DNA of 64,000 nucleotides from the NCBI GenBank assembly GCA_905235135.1, contig CAJOKR010000025.1:26954-90953 (forward strand), read 5' to 3'. The notes below the pieces were generated by a model that ran no database searches, was not told the DNA's origin, and was given only the letters and a program-made list of their open reading frames with translations. Shown in pieces: positions 22,817 to 64,000 of the stretch. Position numbers and translations under genes: made by a program. Origin of the DNA: an uncultured Bacteroidales bacterium (lineage in GTDB: Bacteria > Bacteroidota > Bacteroidia > Bacteroidales > WCHB1-69). Each line of letters starts with the position of its first letter. The stretch's first letter is position 1.

Positions 22817-24600
22817 ATGAGTTTTCTTCCGAAATTTCTTCGACAATATGCTGGGCGTTTGGCGCTGGTGTTCCTGCTGAACGTGCTGAGTTAACGATTT
22901 TCACGTTTCTAATGATCGAGCCGTTCGTTAAGTTGTTGTTCAGGGGGACGTTGGAGGGGTTGAGTCCCGTGTCAGCCTACATGGTTTCCATTGTTTCTGC
23001 GGTGGTGCCGTTGGATAGTGCACGGGAATCCATTGCGGTGCTGATTGTGGCGGCTGCGGTGCTCTATTTCCTCCGCAATCTGGCAGCCTACGGATCGCAG
23101 TGGGTGATGGCGCACGTACGTAGCGACTTCCTCTACCAGTTGCGCAACCGCCTTTACGAGAAGATGATTTCGTTGCCGTTGGGCTATTTCACCATGGAGA
23201 GTCGTGGCGATACGGTGACTCGTGCGGTGAATGACACCCAGGAGGTGGAATATACCGTGCTGACCTCCATCCACAAGTTCCTGACGGATCCGATTGCGCT
23301 GGTCTGCTACTTGACCTTCCTCTTCTACATCGACTACCAGCTCTCCCTTTGGGCTGTACTGCTGATGCCCATCTCGTTCTTGATTATCGGGTTCTTGTCA
23401 CATCTGCTCAAACGTTCCTCCAAGACCTACCGCCAACGGCTTGGGGTGTTGCTCTCACATGTGGAGGAGACTCTTTCCGGTCTGCGGGTAATTTATGGCT
23501 TTAACGCACAGGAACGAGCCTATCGGAAGTTCGAGAAACTGAACAACGAGTTCCATGAGAATCAGAAAAAGGTTTATCGGCAGAGCTATCTCGCTAATCC
23601 TTTGAGTGAGTTCCTCGGGGTGGTCTCGGTGATGGTGGTATTGGTGATTGGAGGTTCCTTAGTGCTGTCAGAACGTTCCACGCTTTCGGCTGAGCTCTTC
23701 ATCACCTATATTGCGCTGTTCACCCAGATCATCACCCCGGTGTCGAATATCTCTTCCGCCTTTGCTGATTACAAACGAGGCGAGGCTGCCCTGGACCGCA
23801 TACAAGATTTTCTCGCCATTGGGGATCAGGTCGAGGATCGTCCGGATGCGATGCCTGTGCCGGGATTCCATCAGGAAATTGCGTTTCAGGATGTCTCGTT
23901 TGCATACGCGGACACGGACGTTCTGCACAATATCAATCTGACAATACCCAAAGGCAAGACGGTGGCGTTAGTAGGTTCTTCGGGTGCAGGCAAGACCACG
24001 CTCGCGGATCTACTAATGCGTTTTTACGATGTCACCAGTGGGCAATTGCTGTTGGATAACATCCCCGTGGACCATTACCGTGTTTCAGACTATCGCGGGT
24101 TGTTCGCGCTCGTTTCCCAGGATGTGATGCTCTTCCACGATACAATCTACCGGAACATCACGCTGGGTTGCGATGCCACGATGGAAGAGGTGATGGAGGC
24201 TGCCAAGGCTGCCAACATCTACGACTTCGTAATGTCCCTCCCCGATGGTTTCGACCACGTGGTCGGCGATCGAGGGGTAGCATTGTCGGGCGGACAGCGC
24301 CAGCGGGTGAGCATCGCCCGTGCCGTGTTGCGTAAAGCACCGATTCTGGTTTTGGACGAGGCCACTTCCGCGATGGACACCGAATCGGAACGGCTGGTGC
24401 AGCAATCGGTGGATGCTTTGTCGAAACAGCGCACGGTGGTGGTCATCGCCCACCGTCTATCCACCATCCGCCACGCCGACTGCATCTGCGTGTTGGACGC
24501 TGGCCAGATTGCGGAGGTGGGAACACATGAGGAACTGATGGCGATGAAGGGCGCGTATTACCAATTTGTAGAGACGCAAAATTTTGCATCTCTACCATAA
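22817..24600 (+). pseudogene. MsbA-like ABC transporter (TM domain + ATPase); early frameshift, or translation restarts at 22912
   Basis: ATG at 22817 encodes MSFLPKFLRQYAGRLALVFLLNVLS then TAA (22892-22894). The +1 frame continues TIFTFLMIEPFVKLLF into the intact ORF 22912-24600 (GSSGAGKTTL, LSGGQRQRVSIARAVL, ILVLDEATSAMD). Confidence 0.75.
24568..24595. repeat. GTAGAGACG palindrome encoding the ABC transporter C-terminus
   Basis: GTAGAGACGCAAAATTTTGCATCTCTAC, translated as VETQNFASL just before the stop. Confidence 0.88.
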
Positions 24601-27758: not shown

Positions 27759-27786
27759 GTAGAGACGCAAAATTTTGTGTCTCTAC
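27759..27786. repeat. GTAGAGACG palindrome, AAAATTTT core
   Basis: GTAGAGACGCAAAATTTTGTGTCTCTAC. Confidence 0.88.
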
Positions 27787-30775: not shown

Positions 30776-30803
30776 GTAGAGACGCACGGCCGTGCGTCTC
30801 TAC
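30776..30803. repeat. GTAGAGACG palindrome, ACGGCCGT core
   Basis: GTAGAGACGCACGGCCGTGCGTCTCTAC, perfect 28-bp palindrome. Confidence 0.92.
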
Positions 30804-30894: not shown

Positions 30895-30952
30895 AATTGG
30901 GCGGCAAAAATACATTTTTTTCTGATACGCCAAAACAAAAGATTTTTCCGTT

Positions 30953-30980
30953 GTAGAGACGCACGGCCGTGTGTCTCTAC
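30953..30980. repeat. GTAGAGACG palindrome, ACGGCCGT core, second copy flanking tRNA-Ser
   Basis: GTAGAGACGCACGGCCGTGTGTCTCTAC. Confidence 0.92.
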
Positions 30981-30991
30981 ATGCGGGATAA

Positions 30992-34197: not shown

Positions 34198-34225
34198 GTA
34201 GAGACGGAGCACGCTCCGTCTCTAC
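34198..34225. repeat. GTAGAGACG palindrome, GAGCACGCTC core
   Basis: GTAGAGACGGAGCACGCTCCGTCTCTAC. Confidence 0.9.
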
Positions 34226-38296: not shown

Positions 38297-38317
38297 GTTC
38301 AATCAATAAAACAAAAA

Positions 38318-38345
38318 AAGGCCGACGAACGTCGGCCTTTTTTTG
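38318..38345. terminator. Bidirectional terminator between convergent genes
   Basis: AAGGCCGAC-GAAC-GTCGGCCTT with flanking A and T runs. Confidence 0.88.
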
Positions 38346-38347
38346 TT

Positions 38348-40039
38348 TTATTGATGTACAATCTTTCGGAGGATTTCGTGGCCGTTAGAGGTTTTGATGT
38401 GGAGGATGTAGGTGCCGGAGGGAAGGGAGCGGAAATCCAAATTGTTGATGTTGTCCCGTTGTAGGGGCGAATAATTATTCGCCCCTACGGCACGGCCTTG
38501 TATGTCATAAAGGGAGATGTTGACGATTCCCAAATCGCCGTTAATCTCCACCGTCACGAAATCCTTCGCGGGGTTTGGGTAAATAGAGATGGCATTTTCA
38601 TAGTCGTCAATTCCAACGTGCTGGGACAGTTGTACGTTTTGGATGACCTTCTGGCCGTCCGCCACATTGGCGACAATCGTTTTCGGGAGGTAGCCCTCGG
38701 CGGAATAGGTGACTGCATACTGACCACCCTTGATGGGACGGTGGTAGTCGCCGTGCGGCAGGGAGGTCTCCACGTAGGAATGGTCGAGGTCGTGGTCGGC
38801 GATATAGATAATCGCTTCAAGCGGCTCGCCCGTCAGCGAATCGGTGACTGTGCCGTGGATGCCATGGTTCGCCTCCCCGATAAAGTTCAGCAAAGCACGG
38901 TACGCAAAGCTCCAATAATACGGTAAGTAGTTGGTCGATAAAACTTTACTGTCGCAAACCTCAATGGTGACGTGGCGCGTGCCGAGATACCAGTTGTGGT
39001 AGTCCTGCATGGAGCCGGTAATGACATACCAGTCGCCACCCTCGGTGACACCGTTATCTTCCTCCGTCATGTAGGTGCTGTGGTAAGACTGGCAGGTGTC
39101 GGCATACCGGTGTCCTACATACTCCCACCAGGCAGCGTCGGCATGACTGTGTTGCCACGACATCCAAAAGTCCCACGGATAGTTGAAAACTTCCGCACCG
39201 CCGTGTAGGTTGGCCGCCAAAGTGAGGTTGTGTGCCTGCATGAACTGCATCATTGCCTGCACCTCGGGTTCGTCCTCGTTTTCTTTCGCGGGGTTCTGTC
39301 CTGCCCATGGGAACGAGCGATTCAGATCAATCCCGTGAAGGTTTTCCCGAATCGAAATTGGCGAGGAGTTGATTTGGTCGTCGGAGGTGTAATAGGTACC
39401 GTCGGGGTTGTGCAGCGGACAAATCCAAATGTCCACATTGTTGACTAACTCGGTGACGTATGCGTCTGTGTTGTAGTTGGTTAGCAGATAGTCGATAAGC
39501 CTCAGCATCATGTAGTAGCCCACCACCTCGTCGCCGTGGATGGTGGAGGAGTAGAAGATGGATGGCTTTCCCTCGCTACCGCTGAGGTCGTTGCTGATGT
39601 GGGCGCATAGGATTTTGCGTCCTCCCGGTGTCGCGGCCAAGATGGTGTCAATCTCGCAAAGCTGCGGGTAGCGCGTCCGGAAGGTGTCCATCATGGCGGT
39701 ATAGGTGCTGTAGGTCGGATAGCGCCTCCAGGAGGAGGTCATCTGCTCGTAGCTATTGGCCATCTGCACGTTGGCGCGGGTCTGCGGTACAGTCGTATAG
39801 GGGATGCCCTTTGCTAAGAAGTTGTCGAAATCCCTGTACGACAGACAGATGCGGGTGTTGAAGGTGTTGTCTGTGTTACGCTGCACACGGTCCACGGAGA
39901 ACTCCCGCGACAGCGACTGCAGCGTGGCAGCGTCTAAGACGGTCTCCACGTAGGTGCTGGGATAGGTCAGCGTGGTGTTTTGCGCTGACGCGGAGATGGT
40001 GAGGATGATGGCGATGATTAGGGTAATAGGTTTTTTCAT
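38348..40039 (-). CDS. M14-family zinc carboxypeptidase with T9SS type A sorting domain
   Basis: Start trimmed to MKKPITLIIAIILTISASAQ; HGDEVVGYYMMLRLIDYLL, HNPDGTYY, DLNRSFPWAG, YPNPAKDFVTVEING. Confidence 0.9.
   Translation of the reverse strand: MKKPITLIIAIILTISASAQNTTLTYPSTYVETVLDAATLQSLSREFSVDRVQRNTDNTFNTRICLSYRDFDNFLAKGIPYTTVPQTRANVQMANSYEQMTSSWRRYPTYSTYTAMMDTFRTRYPQLCEIDTILAATPGGRKILCAHISNDLSGSEGKPSIFYSSTIHGDEVVGYYMMLRLIDYLLTNYNTDAYVTELVNNVDIWICPLHNPDGTYYTSDDQINSSPISIRENLHGIDLNRSFPWAGQNPAKENEDEPEVQAMMQFMQAHNLTLAANLHGGAEVFNYPWDFWMSWQHSHADAAWWEYVGHRYADTCQSYHSTYMTEEDNGVTEGGDWYVITGSMQDYHNWYLGTRHVTIEVCDSKVLSTNYLPYYWSFAYRALLNFIGEANHGIHGTVTDSLTGEPLEAIIYIADHDLDHSYVETSLPHGDYHRPIKGGQYAVTYSAEGYLPKTIVANVADGQKVIQNVQLSQHVGIDDYENAISIYPNPAKDFVTVEINGDLGIVNISLYDIQGRAVGANNYSPLQRDNINNLDFRSLPSGTYILHIKTSNGHEILRKIVHQ
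38461..38488. repeat. GTAGGGGCG palindrome inside the carboxypeptidase sorting domain
   Basis: GTAGGGGCGAATAATTATTCGCCCCTAC, perfect; translated in frame as GANNYSPLQ. Confidence 0.93.
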
Positions 40040-44559: not shown

Positions 44560-45673
44560 ATGAAAAAAGTATTGACAATCAGCATCTTATTGATGATATG
44601 TGGGATGATGACCCTCACCGCCCAAATCCAGCACTTCACCTGGCAGGGTACGGAGCGTGAATATCTCATCCGTGTGCCCTCGCAGCATACGAGTCCTCTG
44701 CCTGTGCTCTTCTTCCTGCACGGGTTAGGCGACAATATCACGAACTATGACCAGACGTTCAACTTCGGGCAGATAGCCGAGGAGTTCGGGTGGGCGATTG
44801 TGGCGCCGCAAGCTCTCAACCAGGGCATAGGCGCCATGTGGAACGCCGGACTGATGCCCAGCTCCATCGATGACGCCGGCTTCCTGATGGCCCTCCTCGA
44901 CTCGCTGACCATCCAGTATCAGCTCGATCCCGACAGCGTCTTCTTCTCGGGCTTTTCGATGGGCGGCTTCATGACGCATCGCATGGCCATCATGCACGGC
45001 GATCGTATTACCGCGTGCGTTCCTTTCAGCGGACTGATCACCACTGCGGATGCCGCACAAACGCCCGTCGCGCCCGTCCGGATGCTCCACGTCCACGGCA
45101 CGAATGACAACGTGGTGGGTTACAACGGATATTCCACCGCGTTTGGCATGAATCTCGGCCTTGGGGTGGATGCTATCATGGACTACTGGCAGAATGCGAA
45201 CAGCTGCACTGGTGAGCCCGCCATTGACACGCTCCCCGACCTCAAGAATGACGGGCTGCGTTTTATCCGCTACACCTACAACTGCGGCACCGACCTGCAG
45301 CTGCTGAAAGTGGTTGGCGGCACCCATAACTGGTATGATGTCGCGCACAATGATGTTGGCTACAAGGAGATTCTCTACGAGTTCTGCTCCGGTCACAGCC
45401 TTCCGTCAGGCGTGCCCGCACGTGAGACGGGGTATCTGCAGGTCTGGCCGAACCCCACAAACGGCGTCCTCAACATCCAGATGCCCAATTCCGATTCACC
45501 GGCTAAAGACATTCAGGTTTTCGATGTGTATGGAAAATTGGTGGATCGTGGTAGGGGCGAATGATTATTCGCCCCTACAGACCACAAAAATCGATATGTC
45601 CCGCTTCCCCGACGGTGTCTATTTCGTGCAGGCAGGCAGCAGTGCGGTGACAAAGGTGGTGGTGTCTCGTTAA
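44560..45673 (+). pseudogene. PHB-depolymerase/feruloyl-esterase-like hydrolase with T9SS sorting domain split by a palindromic insertion
   Basis: MKKVLTISILLMICG...; VLFFLHGLGDN, FFSGFSMGGFMTHRMA; VWPNPTNGVLNIQM. Frame ends at 45564 inside the palindrome; +1 frame continues GANDYSPLQTTKIDMSRFPDGVYFVQAGSSAVTKVVVSR*. Confidence 0.85.
45551..45578. repeat. GTAGGGGCG palindrome inside the esterase sorting domain
   Basis: GTAGGGGCGAATGATTATTCGCCCCTAC. Confidence 0.93.
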
Positions 45674-62073: not shown

Positions 62074-62117
62074 GCAGAGACGTTGCGCGCAACGTCTCTA
62101 CCGTACGACGTCTCTAC
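62074..62117. repeat. GAGACG palindrome (TTGCGCGCAA core) plus half copy; supplies the stop codon of the CHU_C fragment
   Basis: gcAGAGACGTTGCGCGCAACGTCTCTAC then CGTACGACGTCTCTAC. Confidence 0.87.
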
Positions 62118-62308
62118 AACACCGTCACGCTCCCTGTAAACCGATACGGGTTGCCGCCGATCACTGTGCAGCGAATCACGTAATTGTAAACCGCGTTGAC
62201 AGCTGTCTTCCCGTTAAGGCTGCCGTCCCAGCGGAAACCTTTGTCCGTAGAGTAGAACACCTGTTCGCCCCAGCGGTTGAAGATGCTGATTTCGAAGTCG
62301 TTAACCAT
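62114..62308 (-). pseudogene. Remnant of a CHU_C/gliding-motility-type (T9SS type B) C-terminal domain
   Basis: VNDFEISIFNRWGEQVFYSTDKGFRWDGSLNGKTAVNAVYNYVIRCTVIGGNPYRFTGSVTVL*, without its usual upstream part. Confidence 0.8.
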
Positions 62309-62858
62309 GCTTTGAACCTGTCTCGTACATTATTTTTGAAATTTCTACTGCATTTCCAACAGATTGGTTGGAGCACGATAATGTGAACCATAGGGGCATA
62401 TATGGATCACGTTCAATGATTTTTGCATTAAGTAGGTTGGCCTGATTTTTCAGTATAAGAGTATCCGCTAAGTCATATAATTTGACGTACAATAAATCTG
62501 AAACTCCCACAGTGTCATTATACACAGTAATATAAAAAGGGGCCCTATAGTATTCGCCGAGATTCGGAAATGTTTCCTCGCCAGATATGTTAAGGATTGT
62601 CCAGTAGTAGGCAGAATACTCTGGTAAACGACATGTTATAGTAGAAGGATGAAAACAGCTGGGCTGAATTCCCGCTTGGATTAAAAGTCTGCGAGCAGTT
62701 ACAGTATCTTCACTTGTTTGAAACAAGACAAATTGACGTTGGGGGTAACATTGCAAGGTCACTCTTTCCTCAGCATTATAATAGTAGGTGTCTTGTGCGG
62801 ATATTTGAACTCTGCATAATATTAACAATACGGCTATGGTGAAATGTAATCTATTCAT
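62301..62858 (-). pseudogene. N-terminal fragment of a secreted protein (resembles the pro-region of large Bacteroidales surface proteins, possibly S8 peptidase-like)
   Basis: MNRLHFTIAVLLILCRVQISAQ...MPLWFTLSCSNQSVGNAVEISKIMYETGSKHG*, stopping next to an unrelated C-terminal domain in another frame. Confidence 0.6.
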
Positions 62859-63357
62859 TGTTTTTGTCGGGATTTGATATTAATAAATCTAAAGTTACGT
62901 TGTCTTTGTTCGATAATTTGCTATCGGTGATGCATGCCACAGCCCATGTCGAACTGGCAACAGCCATTATGCCCACTGAAATATTAACTTGCAAGACATA
63001 TTCATTTGGCTGGGCCTTTTCCCATTCAACAGTCTGTGTGTAATTCCCAGGGACAACACCATATACCAATAACACAGTGTGCTTTGTGAAATCAATATTG
63101 TCTAATGAATACAAGGATTGTTCTGGAAACAATGCGTCCATTTCGTCCTGCGTGTCGATACGATACAATTTTTCAGGTACAAGATGCTCTCTACAGAATT
63201 GTTTGTCAATGCCAAATTCTGATATTGAAACTACAGGTGACTGCTTGCATGAGGTAAACATTACGCCAGAAAGGGATAACGCCACCAATACCAACGCATA
63301 AAACACATATAATGACCGACTGTTTTTTCTCTCGTGTTGACTTGTTGTTTTTTTCAT
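62851..63357 (-). CDS. Hypothetical lipoprotein
   Basis: 168 aa; hydrophobic N-terminus with SGVMFTSC; overlaps the downstream ORF by 8 bp. Confidence 0.7.
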   Translation of the reverse strand: MKKTTSQHERKNSRSLYVFYALVLVALSLSGVMFTSCKQSPVVSISEFGIDKQFCREHLVPEKLYRIDTQDEMDALFPEQSLYSLDNIDFTKHTVLLVYGVVPGNYTQTVEWEKAQPNEYVLQVNISVGIMAVASSTWAVACITDSKLSNKDNVTLDLLISNPDKNNE

Positions 63358-63506
63358 CGTTTTAATCTTTATAGGGAGGGACCTCTATTTTTACCATTTC
63401 CGAGTCACACCTTCAGACCTTGCGAGGTCCTTTAGTCAAAATCTGAAGATATGACGCTGCAAATCTACAAAATAATCATAAGAGGCGTTCACCGCCTCAC
63501 AACCTT

Positions 63507-63913
63507 CTATTGGTATTCCCGCCCTTCCGCATCCTTCACGCGCAACACATACACGCCCGCGGGAAGGGATTTCACGTCCAGGGTGGCTGTTCCGTCCTGT
63601 AGAGACGTTGCGCGCAACGTCTCTACTGACCCCGCAAACGTTTTTAATTGTTACTATACGCCGCCGTGGTGCTGAAGAACAACCCTGTGAACGTAAACTG
63701 CTGTGTGACAGTGTCGCGATAGACTAACTGCGCCGGAATGTTCAGGAATATCCGGTTGTTGTTCTCGTCCGTGTAGTTCAGCGAACGGTCCGGCATCAGG
63801 AAAATGTTCTCAGAGGTCAACCCAAAAGTGTCGGTGGTGGTGGCTGTGATATCGGTGCCGTCTGCGCTAAGGATTACTTGCGCCAAAGCTCTACAATCTC
63901 TGATATACTCCAA
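63507..63913 (-). pseudogene. Hypothetical protein fragment followed, in another frame, by a T9SS type A C-terminal remnant
   Basis: ORF 63644-63913 ends ...FTGLFFSTTAAYSNN*; the shifted frame reads KTFAGSVETLRATSLQDGTATLDVKSLPAGVYVLRVKDAEGREYQ* to 63507. Confidence 0.65.
63599..63626. repeat. GTAGAGACG palindrome (TTGCGCGCAA core) inside the T9SS CTD remnant
   Basis: GTAGAGACGTTGCGCGCAACGTCTCTAC, read as VETLRATSLQ. Confidence 0.92.
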
Positions 63914-64000
63914 GTCTTAAGACAGCTGTTTGACGAAGTCGAGGCTCGGAAGCTGTTTTTGACAGATGCTTTGTATGTGATGATGCGGGATGCGGTAATG

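Follow-up and report, generated by a model that had tools for sequence, protein, structure and literature searches.

The AT-rich island near the right end of the window, the 64,000-nucleotide stretch of an uncultured Bacteroidales genome analysed here, is probably an operon. A structured leader at its 5' end precedes a lipoprotein gene (ORF1) and a broken T9SS surface-protein gene (ORF2), and this leader likely acts as a self-contained module of promoter and pseudoknot RNA derived from the orphaned right end of an insertion sequence (IS) of the IS5 family. The origin of the leader from an IS5-family right end is well supported, as is its structure; its function we infer. Copies of the leader are conserved and covary, use G-U pairs in a strand-specific manner, are attached to the transposase in relatives and precede the start codons of unrelated genes.

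GC content is 0.38-0.39 across 62300-63360 vs 0.519 (sd 0.042) for the window, whose lowest 1-kb values, down to 0.391, fall in the island. ORF1 (62851-63357, minus strand; GC 0.387), the lipoprotein-like first gene of the operon, lies 20 nt past the leader and has distant homologs in relatives. ORF2 (62301-62858, minus strand; GC 0.380) is what remains of the N-terminal part of a large T9SS surface protein, matching the N-termini of open frames of 1,110-1,405 aa in relatives, the complete ones of which end in type A sorting domains. On the other side of the leader is the 3' part of a small lipoprotein gene, 'pre' (63644-63913, minus strand), whose 5' part runs into the contig end; since the contig stops at window position 64000, the right side is readable only to that point. 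The order 'pre'-leader-ORF1-ORF2 recurs in two relatives, G038 (L239) and G023 (L238), together with the same drop in GC after 'pre' (from 0.49 to 0.35-0.39). There 'pre' is 73-76% identical to the window gene, although the adjoining ORF1 and ORF2 are just about 27-38% identical to their counterparts. The leader is thereby found at the orthologous site between 'pre' and ORF1 in three species, with different leader subtypes. An earlier note on this DNA had described an AT-rich island here, with a small lipoprotein gene and an N-terminal fragment, bounded by two palindromes of common core and by a T9SS remnant on either side. The GC plot and gene assignments bear this description out, the remnants being a CHU_C domain on the left and a type A sorting domain on the right. 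Taken together, AT-richness, palindromes and remnants exceed chance; the palindromes are not specific to the site.

The leader is an 83-nt structured RNA (63378-63460, minus strand) that scores 101.5 bits with model R1. A predicted -7 box of an outward promoter, TAGATTTG (63460-63467, minus strand; consensus TAnnTTTG, PMC9330008), abuts it and adjoins the 5' end in nearly all copies. The hairpin consists of a 5' arm (63437-63457) and a 3' arm (63402-63422) closed by a loop that carries the heptamer GGACCUC (63424-63430). The partner of this heptamer, GAGGUCC (63379-63385), lies at the 3' end, where it is both the second strand of the pseudoknot and the right terminal inverted repeat of the IS (all on the minus strand). 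In the alignment of copies the hairpin spans about 21 bp, and an A-rich linker and GARGUCCC come after it. Among 77 distinct sequences, 90.4% of the stem cells are paired. Two-sided changes in the stem number 184, against 54.7 in shuffles (0/500), which ignore relatedness, and 30-52 in slid controls. G-U pairs outnumber A-C pairs 529 to 68, so the fold is that of RNA from the minus strand, the leader's own. Of 117 copies, 103 can pair the loop heptamer with the 3' end at no fewer than six of seven positions, and they do so in three unrelated stem types; about 10% of the copies are without the 3' pairing. Pair 35-78 is C-G in 35 copies and U-A in 66, and the G-U to A-C ratio of the pseudoknot is just 36:13. 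Covariation of the loop heptamer with the terminal one might also stem from a role of both as transposase sites, which would be a second cause of the heptamer signal. Unpaired letters of the loop and of the A-rich linker are also conserved among copies. The leader hence combines, beside coding genes, a conserved secondary structure with covariation, the mark of a structured cis-regulatory RNA. Two antisense matches in A5 were judged false and left out of later counts; they are still inside model R2. A known RNA was considered and rejected, as Rfam gives no match at E<=1 for the window stretch; eight other leader loci returned just a chance miRNA match. A GC-rich subtype with unrelated stem letters and the same loop and 3' end occurs at L238:5283-5362, L246:54-133 and L248:1901-1983, directly before an ORF1 homolog in L238 and L246.

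The IS origin is evident from the surroundings of the copies. The upstream flanks of many leaders are the 3' end of a transposase, and a transposase or its remnants is present within 1.8 kb in 47 of 166 copies. The enzyme is an IS5-type DDE transposase with IS5-like named relatives. The 23 transposase matches in the genus belong to 21 loci. Contig ends truncate two of these; the other 19, the testable ones, all have the leader downstream on the same strand, at the IS right end. Complete IS copies carry terminal inverted repeats GGGGACYTCTA...TAGARGTCCCC, so that the leader corresponds to the IS right end, with the terminal repeat as its 3' strand. The window copy keeps the right inverted repeat only, with neither a transposase nor a left inverted repeat beside the leader. 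No such transposase was found in the genome of the window, yet it holds at least eight orphan leader copies. Target duplications are limited to 3-4-base matches in a few copies, none of them consistent. L204:5802-5883 and L047:1504-1678 include leaders in tandem and, in L204, a leader that a complete IS follows directly. In L200, L197 and L221 the tail of the 3' end is present in additional copies just behind the leader; these arrangements look as if insertions recur at one spot. Leader matches of identical score and GC in L155, L177, L194, L207 (one MAG), L171 and L206, in that MAG near contig ends, probably reflect a recent multi-copy spread.

The stretch 63378-63477 (minus strand) matched most genomes of the genus, and model R1 detects 283 leader copies in 39 of its 40 genomes. 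The leader is found in a few other Bacteroidales genera as well. Its distribution is narrow, since 395 other genomes drawn across the class gave none (E 1e-5, strict filters). The combined exact pattern retrieved 70 stretches, all from MAGs whose labels are Bacteroidales, Bacteroidetes/Bacteroidia or a lower taxon (genus or family) of these, mostly of rumen or horse gut origin; viral contigs gave 0 matches to the exact leader pattern. A same-strand ORF follows within 250 nt in 147 of 162 copies, mostly with its ATG 7-30 nt past the leader end. By a simple heuristic, 75% of the downstream products look exported vs 37% of background ORFs. Matches to 90 Pfam families are found for 122 downstream products, a sorting domain being present in nine, and no family or pathway is common to these 122 proteins. 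A pathway-specific riboswitch was rejected on account of this diversity. Two loci in genomes of different families, L127 (G226) and L090 (G012), have nearly the same protein start (MKQYRKLLVLML..) behind the leader, possibly after joint transfer of leader and gene. L076:477-1496 and L113:1511-2530 have a common leader type and a near-identical signal peptide (MKNLISLFVILA) followed by different mature proteins, a possible case of exchanged 5' parts of surface genes.

In the mechanism that we propose, the IS right end would be a self-contained expression module in which an outward Bacteroidetes promoter is followed by an RNA that folds at once. Transcription would start at the base of the hairpin, and in cells the RNA would adopt the hairpin of about 21 bp with its loop paired to the terminal inverted repeat. 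Because this repeat is at the IS edge, the fold would close exactly at the IS border, whatever gene follows. The leader would give the next gene a standard protected 5' end and may set ribosome access to the start codon or stability. An IS landing in a 5' UTR, by supplying that 5' end and ribosome access, would then take over expression and not destroy it. Once the transposase is lost, promoter-leaders would remain as host regulatory parts, as in the window. A wider scenario, which we put forward tentatively, is that a branch of the IS5 family spreads the promoter-pseudoknot leader, that hundreds of orphaned copies became regulatory leaders of mostly exported proteins in gut Bacteroidales, and that the same RNA logic operates in IS1168 and IS1169 upstream of nim genes. 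Outward promoters of IS are already known. If the leader works in the proposed way, it would explain why a gene can be switched on by an IS inserted only a few bases ahead of its start codon, would supply surface-protein genes of uncultured gut Bacteroidales with ready-made leaders, and would suggest that IS-driven Bacteroides genes are under RNA-level as well as promoter control. A similar arrangement is found in IS elements that switch on drug-resistance genes of Bacteroides.

The promoter and leader might instead serve the IS itself, controlling the transposase after circularisation or after landing behind another copy, with incidental effects on the host. Outward promoters are known to drive transposase expression in circular intermediates (PMC9330008), and the leader in L204 lies immediately upstream of a complete IS. 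We nevertheless regard this role as unlikely, because more than 90% of the copies are without transposase and have nonetheless retained structure, promoter and their place ahead of genes. The reverse history is that an IS picked up a regulatory RNA of the host, either a riboswitch or an RNA targeted by some protein or small RNA. It would agree with the conserved unpaired letters of loop and linker, with the enrichment of exported proteins downstream and with the leader being at the orthologous pre-ORF1 site of three species in different subtypes. The downstream genes, however, have no common pathway, each testable transposase locus of the genus carries the leader and comparable ends exist in distant IS, so that a capture of this kind also has a low probability.

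Hairpin and inner repeat could also be DNA-level binding sites of the transposase, their complementarity just reflecting two copies of the inverted repeat. The loop heptamer is indeed identical to the repeat of the left end (GGACYTC), and the 3' heptamer is that of the right end, but neither the excess of G-U over A-C in the stem nor its two-sided changes are expected of DNA, and the stem letters are wholly different between subtypes; we consider this explanation unlikely as well.

Among named elements, the closest are IS1168, which precedes nimA in L275, and IS1169, which precedes nimD in L276; their transposase is about 45% identical. Like the IS of the window leader, they have an IS5-family transposase, the same orientation and a TAnnTTTG-like box, and their right ends lie immediately upstream of an unrelated gene's start codon. 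They likewise show complementarity between loop and terminal repeat, in letters that differ from those of the leader and from each other (heptamers GGGUUCU/AGAACCC in IS1168 and GAGUUCU/AGAACUC in IS1169). They differ by their inverted repeats, TAGAACYCACC, and by shorter or weaker hairpins. The link between the leader and these elements is one of architecture read by eye, since model R2 reaches just 12.6 bits on IS1168 (E 0.25, not significant). Five further IS with such ends, from other Bacteroidales families, have at least six complementary bases in four cases and four bases in one. MFE structures have long hairpins in L277, L279 and L281 and weaker ones in IS1169 and L280, while loop-to-tail pairing replaces the hairpin in IS1168 and L278. 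Related IS with other ends (L283, L284) do not have this architecture.

Leaders with an H-type pseudoknot, of the preQ1-I and SAM-II kind, resemble the leader in having an A-rich linker and a hairpin loop whose pairing partner is a 3' strand close to the start codon. The leader described here differs from these riboswitches by a much longer stem, by being IS-borne and by the absence of both a common downstream pathway and an Rfam match. The GUCCY-hairpin (Weinberg 2010, PMC2864571) is a candidate RNA of Bacteroidetes, listed for Proteobacteria too, with an uncertain role; the 3' end of the leader has GUCCC. Known Bacteroides systems place IS1168/IS1169 upstream of nimA/nimB and nimD, and IS1186 upstream of cfiA. 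A review (PMC9330008) counts these three elements among those with complete outward promoters, and the literature found in a search of limited reach describes them only as promoters. ISAba1, ISEcp1 and IS1237 also have complete outward promoters and, as proposed for the leader module, are mobile promoters that activate neighbours; a conserved structured leader RNA is absent from their description in PMC9330008. A limited literature search for structured leader RNAs in IS ends found none described, nor did we find an earlier description of an IS end containing a conserved, covarying leader RNA in which one pseudoknot strand is the inverted repeat.

At the left boundary of the island is the 3' end of a T9SS type B (CHU_C) gene (62109-62321, minus strand), out of frame with ORF2 and 84% identical in DNA to G021:C6:3007-3219. 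Its CHU_C domain match covers 62114-62308 (minus strand; PF13585, E 6.5e-10). In G021 the counterpart is part of a 568-aa frame, past whose stop a palindrome occupies the corresponding place, and CHU_C ends elsewhere are part of frames of about 565 aa. As ORF2 homology in the window ends near residue 181 and the CHU_C gene end starts at 62321, the true fusion is at about 62313-62321 and not at the palindrome. This is one real out-of-frame junction, with the 5' part of a surface gene on one side and the 3' end of a different surface gene on the other. At the right boundary, a C-terminal remnant assigned to the T9SS type A sorting domain (63490-63599, minus strand) lies just inside the palindrome; its TIGR04183 match is at about 63510-63599 (E 1.8e-4, below the model's cut-off). 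Remnant and palindrome are repeated together elsewhere in the genome. In the window they sit between 'pre' and the leader, a position at which the remnant is not present in the G038 and G023 loci.

The earlier note took such CTD/palindrome units to recombine with or replace one another, swapping the 5' parts of surface-protein genes. CTD and palindrome DNA does occur repeatedly in the genome, and a real fusion junction is found at the edge of the CHU_C end. Against this, the left palindrome is a 3' flank that CHU_C genes hold in common, the right one is CTD coding DNA, and the 'pre'-leader-ORF1-ORF2 order is conserved in the two relatives, with no breakpoint at the palindromes. Recombination between these units is mostly contradicted by these observations and appears extremely improbable. 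An exchange of 5' parts retains support from the junction, which joins the CHU_C end to the N-terminal 181 or so residues of another surface protein, and from the divergence of ORF1 and ORF2 beside a conserved 'pre'; the part of the claim that made the CTD-palindrome unit its vehicle falls. The mobile 5' part that the evidence supports is the IS-derived promoter-leader.

The core TTGCGCGCAA is common to both palindromes, the left one at 62074-62101 having one mismatch and the right one at 63599-63626 being perfect. G021 and G007 have a palindrome at the place of the left one, just past the CHU_C stop, and G006 has one next to the corresponding stretch, indicating that the left palindrome arrived with the 3' end of the CHU_C gene. 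In intact CTD genes of the same genome as the window, the right one codes for VETLRATSLQ, and it reads in frame as VETLRATSL at the same sorting-domain place in three long T9SS proteins (L002:1505, L007:1505 and L013:1505), where a palindromic repeat has been accepted as protein-coding sequence. Pattern and model searches, the source of all genome-wide counts, found 16 sites with the palindrome core at <=3 mismatches and 248 GAGACG-N10-CGTCTC sites (G000) with several self-complementary cores; the reversed-pattern control gave 0. These sites outline a dispersed family of 22-30-bp palindromes, GTAGAGACG-core-CGTCTCTAC plus a GTAGGGGCG variant, built on several different self-complementary cores. 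About eleven palindromes of this frame or the variant are inside the window alone, among them, besides the two at the island, those at 2037-2058, 24568-24595, 27759-27786, 30776-30803, 30952-30981, 34198-34225, 38461-38488 and 45551-45578. Recombination ends were rejected as their identity, given 248 genome-wide relatives and no breakpoint marked by either palindrome. REPs of a linked Y1/RAYT transposase were also rejected, the stretches around the four Y1_Tnp genes of the genome having no such palindrome. A literature search for the palindrome sequence yielded nothing relevant. A separate palindrome with 25-bp arms, at 38304-38353 between converging genes, is probably a two-way terminator.
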